Source: Anaerolineae bacterium
Lineage (GTDB): Bacteria; Chloroflexota; Anaerolineae; Aggregatilineales; Ch27
Assembly: GCA_013178165.1 (NCBI GenBank)
Contig: JABLXG010000001.1
Coordinates: 143,605-207,604 of the forward strand
Direction: 5' to 3'
DNA length: 64,000 bases
A program made the position numbers and the translations under genes. A model generated the notes under the pieces. It saw only the letters and a program-made list of their open reading frames with translations. It was not told where the DNA came from and made no database searches. Of this stretch, positions 47,388-50,323 are shown in pieces (position 1 is the stretch's first letter; each line of letters begins with the position of its first letter).

Positions 47388-48764
47388 TCATGACCGACCC
47401 AGCAGAGCTTGCCATTGCTTGATCTGTGTCGACACGGTCTCCGGGGCTGTTCCCCCTACAGGCTGGCGACGCGCCACGGCCTGACCAAAGTCGAATACAT
47501 CACAAACATCCGGGCCAAATTGCGGCGCGATGGCCTGGTAGTCAGCCAGGGGCAGGGCGGACAGCTTCACTCCAAGCGCTTCAGCGCGGCGGACGACCTG
47601 ACCGGTCAGATGATGCGCCTGGCGGAAGGGTACGCCCCTGGCTACGAGGTAATCGGCCAGGTCTGTGGCGAGCATGGTTTCGTCGAGTGCTGCACGCATC
47701 CGGTCTGGATGCAACGTCATGGAGGCAATCAGGGCGGTCAGGACAGGCAGGAGCAACGCCAGTGTATCGTAAGCATCAAAGAGTGGTTCTTTGTCCTCCT
47801 GGAGGTCCTTATTATATCCGGAAGGCAATCCCTTGAGCGTGGTCAGCAGGCCGGCTAGGTGGCCAATGATCCGTCCAGTTTTGCCGCGGGCCAGTTCCAG
47901 CGGATCGGGATTGCGCTTCTGAGGCATCAGGCTGCTGCCTGTGCTATAGCGATCGTCAAGGGTAACAAAGCCGAAGCACGGGTTGCTGTAGATGATCAGA
48001 TCCTCAGCCAGCCGGGAAAGATGCGTCATCAGCAGCGCAGCGGCATGCAGAAAGTCAGCCACGAAGTCGCGATCGGAGACGGCGTCAAGACTGTTGCTGC
48101 TGGCTTTTTGAAAGCCCAGCGCCACCGCCAGGGCGGTACGGTCGACAGGGTAGGGGGTTCCGGCCAGCGCCCCCGATCCCAGCGGACACTGGCTGGCAGC
48201 AGCAGCTGTAGCCTGACCCAGCCGATCCCGATCGCGCTCAAGCATGGCCACAGTACTCAGTAGCCAGTGTGCTGCCGTGATCGGCTGGGCAGGTTGAAAG
48301 TGGGTCAGGCCGGGCATCACGCTGTGGACGTGCCCCGCAGCCTGGGTCAGGAGGGCGCGCTGCAAATCACGGACGTGATCCAGTAGGGCGGGCGTGGCCT
48401 GCATGACCCAGAGCCGCAGGTCTGTCGCCACCTGATCGTTGCGGCTACGACCTGTGTGCAGCTTGCCGGCGACGGGGCCAATAGCCTCTGTAAGGCAGCG
48501 TTCAATGGCGGTGTGGATGTCCTCATCACCGGGGGCGGGCGCAAACTGGCCGGCGGTAAAAAGCCGGCGCACCTGCTCCAGTCCCTGCACGATGGCCTGA
48601 TGTTCTTCGGACGTCAGAATCCCTGCCTGGTGAAGCGCCCCGGCCCATGCCTGGCTGGCGGTGATGTCGACGTCATAAAGTCGCCAGTCAAACGACAGGC
48701 TATCGTTTAGCCGCCTTACCGCGTCATCGGTCGGTTGCTGGAATACGCCACCCCACAGTGTCAT
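47388..48764 (-). CDS. argH: Argininosuccinate lyase
   Basis: A 458-residue enzyme of the aspartase/fumarase superfamily that splits argininosuccinate into arginine and fumarate, the last step of arginine synthesis. The signature is GSSLMPQKRNPDPLEL. Other blocks are TGRSRNDQVATDLRLW and MPGLTHFQPAQPI. It follows argG in the same direction after 29 bases, so it should share the arginine attenuator upstream of argG. Confidence 0.97.
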   Translation of the reverse strand: MTLWGGVFQQPTDDAVRRLNDSLSFDWRLYDVDITASQAWAGALHQAGILTSEEHQAIVQGLEQVRRLFTAGQFAPAPGDEDIHTAIERCLTEAIGPVAGKLHTGRSRNDQVATDLRLWVMQATPALLDHVRDLQRALLTQAAGHVHSVMPGLTHFQPAQPITAAHWLLSTVAMLERDRDRLGQATAAAASQCPLGSGALAGTPYPVDRTALAVALGFQKASSNSLDAVSDRDFVADFLHAAALLMTHLSRLAEDLIIYSNPCFGFVTLDDRYSTGSSLMPQKRNPDPLELARGKTGRIIGHLAGLLTTLKGLPSGYNKDLQEDKEPLFDAYDTLALLLPVLTALIASMTLHPDRMRAALDETMLATDLADYLVARGVPFRQAHHLTGQVVRRAEALGVKLSALPLADYQAIAPQFGPDVCDVFDFGQAVARRQPVGGTAPETVSTQIKQWQALLGRS

Positions 48765-48793: not shown

Positions 48794-50059
48794 CTAATCA
48801 CGCTTGAACAAGGCATAGTCGGGTTGGGCATATTCGCTTGTCTTCCGACCTTCGAGGGCCAGGAGCGCTTCCACTTTCAGCGGCAACCCGAATAGATTGA
48901 TGAACCCTTCCGCATCAGTCTGATCGTAGATGTCCATTTGCCCGAACGACGCATAGTCTTCCCGGTACAGGCTAAAGGGACTCTTGCGTCCGGCGATGAT
49001 CGCATTGCCTTTGTACAGCTTGAGCCGTACCGTGCCGGTGACATTCCTCTGGGTCACCCGGACAAAGGCATCCAGCGCTTCCCGAAGCTGGGTGTACCAC
49101 TGGCCGTTATACACCAGTTCGGCGTACTTCACGGCGATGAAGTCCTTGAAGTGCATGGTGTATTTGTCAATGCAGATGCTTTCCAGAGCCTGATGGGCCT
49201 TGTAGCAGAGCGTGCCGCCAGGGGTTTCATAGACGCCGCGGCTCTTCATACCAACCAGCCGGTTTTCGACCATATCGACACGCCCGATACCGTGCTTGCC
49301 GCCCAGAGCATTGAGTTGCTCGAACAATTCGACAGGGGGTAGCTTCTGTCCATTCAGGCTGACGGGGACCCCCTTCTGGAAGCCGATCTCAATGTACTCA
49401 GGTTCGTCGGGCGCTTCCTGAGGACTGGCGGTCAGTACATACATATCTTCCTCAGGTTCATTCCAGGGGTCTTCCAGCGGGCCGCCTTCGTGACTCATGT
49501 GAAAGAGGTTGCGATCACGGCTGTAGATGCTCTTGAGAGTTTGGGCAATCGGTACGTTATGCGCCTGGGCATAGGCGATGGCGTCCTCGCGGCTCCGGAT
49601 ATGCCATTCCCGCCACGGGGCAATGACCTTGAGTTTGGGATTCAAGGCCATTGCTGTCAGCTCAAAGCGTACCTGATCGTTTCCTTTGCCAGTGCAACCG
49701 TGAGCGATGGCATCCGCGCCTTCCACTTCCGCCACTTCCACTAGGCGCCTGGCGATCAACGGACGGGCCATTGAGGTGCCGAGGAGATAATCACGCTCAT
49801 AGACCGCACCGGCCTGCATGGTCGGAAAGACAAACTTGAGCAGGAACTCCTCCCGCAGATCGTCAAGGATGAGTTTGCTGGCGCCGGTCTTGCGGGCTTT
49901 TTCCTCCAGCCCTTCAAGTTCTTCTCCCTGGCCGATGTTGCTGGTATAGCAGATCACCTCGCAGCCATAGTTTTCGATCAGCCAGGGAACGATGATCGAG
50001 GTATCCAGACCACCGCTATAGGCGAGTACGACCTTGTTTACCTTTTGCTGGCCAGCCAT
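48794..50059 (-). CDS. argG: Argininosuccinate synthase
   Basis: A 421-residue ATP-dependent ligase of citrulline and aspartate. The PP-loop is [11 protein letters not shown]. Further conserved parts are [31 protein letters not shown] and the C-terminal [18 protein letters not shown] region. AAGGAG eleven bases upstream supports ATG 50059; an in-frame start fifteen codons upstream would run into the leader region. An attenuator with an arginine-rich leader peptide precedes it. Confidence 0.97.
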
Positions 50060-50109: not shown

Positions 50110-50146
50110 AACGTCCCCAGACCTCTTGCTTTGGTCTGGGGACGTT
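50110..50146 (-). terminator. Attenuator terminator of argG-argH
   Basis: On the minus strand a perfect 14-base-pair stem (50146-50133 with 50123-50110, loop of nine) is followed by TTCGTGTGTTT. The stem with the bases that follow reads GACGTTTTCG. It lies 50 bases before argG and downstream of the arginine leader ORF, with no other gene on this strand between promoter and argG. Confidence 0.85.
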
Positions 50147-50191
50147 CAGAGCACCTTCGGGAAATTCGGCGCCTGCAGCAACCCAAGAATT

Positions 50192-50287
50192 TCAGCACAC
50201 GCCAAAATTCTCCGCCAGACCAATATGCAGTCGGCGGATACGACGGCGCAAACGTGAAACAGACGAATTGACCCAGGCGATATTCAT
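50192..50287 (-). CDS. Arginine-rich leader peptide of argG-argH
   Basis: A 31-residue ORF, MNIAWVNSSV then SRLRRRIRRLH, ending at TGA 50192-50194. Six of the eight residues 12-19 are Arg. It lies between a promoter and an intrinsic terminator directly ahead of argG, so stalling at Arg codons during arginine shortage would plausibly allow read-through. There is no obvious Shine-Dalgarno. The predicted transcription start falls at or next to the ATG, so the mRNA may be leaderless. A seven-base hairpin (AGAATTT/AAATTCT, 50211-50186) spans the stop codon. The remainder of the 392-base gap to pheA shows only the two promoters. Confidence 0.8.
   Translation of the reverse strand: MNIAWVNSSVSRLRRRIRRLHIGLAENFGVC
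50215..50223 (-). promoter_or_regulatory. Antiterminator segment of the arg leader
   Basis: TTGGTCTGG on the minus strand, in codons 22-25 of the leader ORF, is the exact complement of CCAGACCAA at 50139-50131, which covers seven bases of the terminator ascending arm and two bases of its loop. Pairing would prevent the terminator from forming. Confidence 0.7.
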
Positions 50288-50293
50288 GATTGT

Positions 50294-50323
50294 ATCATAG
50301 CGATACATCAACGCCAACGTCAA
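50294..50323 (-). promoter_or_regulatory. Promoter of argG-argH
   Basis: -35 TTGACG (50323-50318), an 18-base spacer and -10 TATGAT (50299-50294) on the minus strand. Six bases separate the -10 from the leader ATG at 50287, so transcription should begin at or within a base or two of the start codon. Confidence 0.6.

Follow-up and report, generated by a model that had tools for sequence, protein, structure and literature searches.

ArgR is the textbook regulator of arginine synthesis in bacteria, and the argG-argH operon described here raises the question of whether this pathway can also be controlled by a leader peptide whose arginine codons are read by the ribosome. An earlier note on the window (the whole stretch of DNA that was analysed, 64,000 nucleotides from an Anaerolineae bacterium) had read the region upstream of argG in this way. 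We now consider, with a probability of about 0.88, that the argG leader is a ribosome-mediated transcription attenuator sensing arginyl-tRNA. Three attenuator features are found at this locus: a short leader ORF with clustered codons for the amino acid that the operon makes, an intrinsic terminator between that ORF and argG, and an antiterminator that excludes the terminator and has been kept by paired changes.

Architecture of the argG leader

A sigma-70-like promoter lies 5' of a 31-codon ORF with six arginines, which are followed by a nine-base antiterminator segment, a 14-bp hairpin and then argG-argH. The features are as follows.

50294-50323, minus strand: predicted sigma-70-type promoter, TTGACG-18-TATGAT, with 10 of 12 consensus matches
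50192-50287, minus strand: leader ORF, 31 codons, MNIAWVNSSVSRLRRRIRRLHIGLAENFGVC; ATG at 50287-50285, TGA at 50194-50192; recurs in relatives as an Arg-rich short ORF
50231-50254, minus strand: regulatory codon run, residues 12-19 (R L R R R I R R), seen in the sequence; Arg excess across 66 regions
50211-50238, minus strand: 1:2 hairpin TCCGCCGAC...GTCTGGCGGA, Arg codons 18-19 against segment 2, -13.9 kcal/mol
50215-50223, minus strand: segment 2, antiterminator strand TTGGTCTGG, exact complement of 50139-50131; equivalents in relatives
50131-50139, minus strand: segment 3, CCAGACCAA, terminator 5' arm and loop, exact complement of segment 2
50110-50146, minus strand: 3:4 terminator hairpin, perfect 14-bp stem, 9-nt loop, TTTT tract, -26.7 kcal/mol
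48794-50059, minus strand: argG, argininosuccinate synthase, the controlled gene (curated models TIGR00032 and NF001770)
47388-48764, minus strand: argH, argininosuccinate lyase, second gene of the operon, 29 nt after argG (curated model TIGR00838)

The positions given previously for the leader ORF, the terminator and its complement proved exact to the base on recheck. The arginines occupy positions 12, 14, 15, 16, 18 and 19 of the leader, and this density (six in eight residues) is the highest in any upstream ORF among the 14 strong hairpin-plus-T sites of the window, the runner-up having five. Two features are new relative to the earlier note, the 1:2 hairpin and the position of the -10 box, TATGAT (50299-50294), 6 nt upstream of the leader ATG; in most relatives' argG leaders this spacing is 6-10 nt. 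Transcription is thus predicted to start at the ATG, or at most one or two bases from it, so that the leader mRNA would be leaderless. There is also a longer in-frame ORF (ATG 50338), but its start is upstream of the -10 box.

Once the 1:2 hairpin is counted, the argG leader has the classic set of 1:2, 2:3 and 3:4 pairings. Segment 2 begins 7 nt past the last Arg codon. The terminator hairpin ends in TTTTCGTGTGTTT and its U-tract is short (TTTT, then CGTGTGTTT); the equivalents in relatives have longer T-tracts. One generic scanner, whose loop limit is below 9 nt, made no call at this terminator. As a whole, the 183-nt leader RNA folds at -79.4 kcal/mol, five standard deviations below its shuffles.

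A second leader of similar appearance lies between argH and ilvD (47241-47055, minus strand), where a terminator follows an ORF of 40 codons, many of them for Ile, Leu or Val. Its segment CTGGTTGGGG (47154-47145) is the exact ten-base complement of 47081-47072, in the terminator 5' arm and loop. Its sequence suggests that the ilvD-ilvB leader is a branched-chain attenuator built like the one at argG.

Recurrence of arginine leaders in relatives

Upstream regions of argG were drawn from the order, the class and the phylum, together with named contigs (Ardenticatenia, Anaerolineae, Thermanaerothrix, Candidatus Chloroploca, Oscillochloris and others). A strong terminator preceded by an Arg-rich short ORF was present in approximately 40 of 124 distinct Chloroflexota argG regions, with Arg runs such as RRIRRRRT, RLRRRRLTT, RRLRRRTRK, RPRRRYRRR, LRLRRDRRT and PRSRRPK. 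Most of the remaining regions lack a nearby terminator, and in several of these genomes argC, on the same strand and a few kilobases away, bears the leader instead.

Further Arg leaders were sought at argC and argF in the same genome as the window, and one was found before argC (contig 29), with the peptide MTLLIAIPVVELRRPRRRPQTNPVWQG followed by AATCCCCCCAGACCGGGGGGATTTTT; judging by gene order read from the ORFs, it precedes argC-argB-argD. Its core pair, GGTCTGG/CCAGACC, is the centre of the argG core, as if one had been copied from the other. Among the other sampled genomes of the order, all those with a strong terminator before argC have an Arg leader there too. No promoter could be assigned to the argC leaders, which are probably not leaderless. 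The leaders did not extend to argF or carA: argF (29 genomes) had a few terminators and no Arg-rich ORF, and among 17 carA upstream regions there was a single terminator and Arg-rich ORFs were absent. The window's own genome yielded no carA match exceeding the cut-off.

Three contigs labelled Deltaproteobacteria, Desulfosarcina and Bacteroidetes carry an argG 73-78% identical to that of the window, and two of the three have an Arg leader. These are probably mislabelled or contaminated bins.

Specificity for arginine

Runs of CGN codons are cheap at high GC, and the runner-up site in the window has five arginines in eight. The Arg-rich ORF and the complementarity might accordingly be by-products of GC-rich sequence. 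We compared the densest eight-residue window of any short ORF in 66 argG and argC regions with a terminator against dinucleotide shuffles. The observed windows held 4.3-4.6 arginines, against 1.8-1.9 in the shuffles. Furthermore, among 40 argG upstream regions outside Chloroflexota there was one terminator and no Arg-rich ORF. A compositional origin is, in our view, scarcely credible, and the pairing data below argue against it again.

Across the 66 regions, Arg was the sole residue strongly in excess over shuffles (+2.58 in eight), followed by Met (+0.62), with Lys at +0.06. At least four arginines in eight residues were found in 22 of 22 argC and 30 of 44 argG regions. Synonymous-change counts in the Arg run were 67 versus 59.

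This specificity also bears on how arginine might be sensed. Dense positive charge in a nascent peptide slows ribosomes, and arginine-sensing arrest peptides are known in fungi (the arginine attenuator peptide); SpeFL does the like with ornithine. It is conceivable, then, that the same terminator and antiterminator are operated by an Arg-rich nascent peptide that stalls the ribosome through its charge in the tunnel, or that binds free arginine, with no sensing of Arg-tRNA. However, lysine, which is equally charged, is not in excess, and the Arg runs are interrupted by neutral residues. Unlike arrest peptides, the leader peptides have no residues in common across families beyond the Arg run itself. 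On these grounds we judge arrest by the peptide improbable, and favour the reading of Arg codons through arginyl-tRNA.

Covariation of the alternative pairings

If the antiterminator matters, segment 2 should follow the terminator arm as both change. In a first set, 26 of 39 argG leaders paired with their terminator 5' arm better than shuffles did (p≤0.05). Over 62 leaders, pairing was stronger with the leader's own terminator arm (mean -19.8 kcal/mol) than with foreign arms (-14.6 kcal/mol; paired Wilcoxon p 1e-10), and poorer pairing with foreign arms is not what GC-rich composition alone would give. Contiguous complementary cores of at least seven bases occurred in 48 leaders, as 36 different pairs, among them GGTCTGG/CCAGACC, AGTCCGG/CCGGACT, CGGGGTCT/AGACCCCG, GAGAAGG/CCTTCTC and ATGAGGTTCG/CGAACCTCAT. 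The core starts a median of 15.5 nt past the last Arg codon (IQR 10-21). As read from these core pairs, segment 2 and the terminator arm have changed together many times.

Tested singly against shuffles, 28 of 62 cores reached p≤0.05, short cores being unable to score better, and the segment-2 cores of one leader (L028) and of the Chloroploca-type leaders were short, weak and non-significant. Segment 2 is mostly paired upstream across the leaders, with 1:2 energies that are not clearly below those of shuffles (mean z -0.7). The search among relatives for a conserved Arg run and covarying pairings, which had been suggested as a check, came out in favour of the attenuator. The claim that terminator and antiterminator are mutually exclusive is borne out both by the exact complementarity of 50223-50215 and 50139-50131 and by the paired changes in relatives.

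Bacterial leader ORFs can raise or buffer expression simply by being translated. The terminator could be constitutive, or could belong to a small upstream transcript, with the Arg ORF boosting or buffering expression by keeping Rho or premature termination away and without sensing arginine. This would leave unexplained the enrichment of Arg alone, the restriction of the leaders to argG and argC, and the covariation between segment 2 and the terminator arm, and we regard it as very unlikely. Reinitiation has been proposed for ORFs very near the gene (PMC4833913), but 132 nt separate the leader stop codon from argG, a distance too great for reinitiation, which operates at about 10 nt.

Ribosome position and folding models

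In the proposed attenuator, a ribosome stalled in the Arg run would open the 1:2 hairpin and leave segment 2 free. We set the distance between the first base of the A-site codon and the front edge of the ribosome to 13 nt, a toeprint value (PMC13009471). In this position model, the 1:2 hairpin is broken and segment 2 stays free when the ribosome stops at any of Arg14 to Arg18. At Arg19 it covers the first three of the nine bases of segment 2, and at Arg12 it does not reach the 1:2 hairpin (50238-50211). The earlier note had cautioned that, because of the close spacing, a stalled ribosome might mask segment 2; this applies only at Arg19, and to three of nine bases, and is otherwise minor. It had also proposed that stalls at Arg12-16 would leave segment 2 free, which is upheld for Arg14-Arg16 but not for Arg12, where the competing 1:2 hairpin persists. 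Since a stall at Arg12 spares that hairpin, the model makes Arg14-Arg19 the likely effective stall sites.

Equilibrium folding was carried out with a masked ribosome, both for the complete RNA and for RNA truncated before the terminator 3' arm. In the complete RNA, the terminator beat the antiterminator every time. Such folding therefore cannot model the switch, which has to be kinetic, as in trp; by these models, the antiterminator can win only kinetically. In the truncated RNA, the informative case, segment 3 and its flank kept 11-15 pairs with upstream sequence when a ribosome sat at residues 15-19. With the ribosome at the stop codon there was no clean loss of upstream segment-3 pairing in this model, and the stalled and stop-codon states were not cleanly separated.

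Distribution of ArgR

The ArgR domain (PF02863) was found in none of the 61 genomes of the order that were searched (that of the window and 60 relatives) and in no sampled genome of the class; the same search detected it in 8 of 14 control genomes and, among 121 genomes sampled from the phylum, in 22. Phylum genomes that have ArgR often carry its gene immediately before argG, within the arg cluster (for example, G090 contig 94 and G146 contig 40).

None of the 21 ArgR-bearing genomes of the phylum set had an argC leader, and neither of the two whose argG upstream regions were examined had an argG leader. An argC or argG leader was present in 24 of 28 ArgR-less genomes at the looser threshold of at least three Arg in eight (Fisher p 4e-10), and in 15 of 28 at a stricter threshold (p 3e-5), although both p-values make the association look stronger than it is, because the 28 genomes were picked for an argG resembling that of the window and share ancestry, and because only two ArgR-bearing argG regions entered the comparison. 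Judged by these gene and leader searches, Arg leaders and ArgR are mutually exclusive in the phylum genomes sampled. The order without ArgR, together with the Arg run and the covarying pairings in relatives, supports the attenuator interpretation with which we began.

A model for attenuation at argG

From the DNA we infer a course of events that runs from the start site and translation of the ORF to kinetic trapping of the antiterminator, read-through and a response to arginine. Transcription would start at or beside the leader ATG. If arginine runs short, a ribosome would stall in the Arg run, most effectively at Arg14-Arg19, and open the 1:2 hairpin; segment 2 could then capture segment 3 as it exits RNA polymerase, and this 2:3 pairing would prevent the terminator from forming, allowing argG-argH to be transcribed. 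When arginine is ample, the ribosome would reach the stop codon and cover segment 2. Behind it, the 1:2 hairpin would take up segment 2, the 3:4 terminator would form and transcription would stop before argG. In the stop-codon state, the 1:2 hairpin and release of the ribosome would together have to prevent antitermination.

More broadly, we think it likely that arginine control in several Chloroflexota lineages was ancestrally exerted by an Arg-codon attenuator regulon, made up of argG-argH and argC-argB-argD, which there replaces ArgR, and that a leaderless mRNA encodes the argG sensor peptide. If so, this would be the first case of arginine biosynthesis under an arginine-specific, ribosome-mediated transcription attenuator. 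Leader-peptide attenuation would thereby extend to arginine, in a phylum for which little RNA regulation has been described. As two arginine-control systems appear mutually exclusive among the sampled genomes of one phylum, they offer a test case for regulator swapping. The argG leader may also serve to test whether the coupling of ribosome and RNA polymerase on leaderless mRNAs is tight enough for attenuation.

Comparison with known systems

Rfam covariance models identified no leader, riboswitch or T-box family upstream of argG, and the microRNA matches in one relative (L062) were weak and below threshold. In Actinobacteria, a survey detected no RNA structure conserved at the operons for arginine and cited T-boxes as arginine RNA control elsewhere (PMC1262725). 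The full-text literature searched, which mostly excludes subscription papers, contained no precedent for a terminator-based Arg-codon attenuator of arginine synthesis or for ribosome-mediated transcription attenuation in this phylum, and the main text of Naville and Gautheret (2010) mentions neither arginine nor Chloroflexi.

Arg codons in leader peptides have been implicated in two other systems. In Salmonella, those of the speF leader orf34 report arginine supply (PMC6386406), but they number only two, they act through Rho, RBS access and RNase G decay, and the gene belongs to polyamine synthesis (PMC6386406). In Staphylococcus aureus, those of rbfL sense arginine limitation through ribosome pausing (PMC13009471), but the outcome is translational, since the RBS of rbf is blocked, expression is repressed at low arginine and the target is not an arg gene (PMC13009471). 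ArgR and arginine T-boxes also place arg genes under arginine-responsive control, but by protein-DNA or tRNA-RNA recognition.

The closest parallels are the trp, his, leu, thr, ilv and phe attenuators, with which the argG leader shares an ORF rich in cognate codons, a segment 2 that chooses between partners and an intrinsic terminator before a biosynthetic operon. Unlike them, it reads arginine, it is found in Chloroflexota and it probably starts at its own ATG. Ribosome-mediated attenuation itself is well known; the novelty lies in the amino acid, the phylum and the probable leaderless start.
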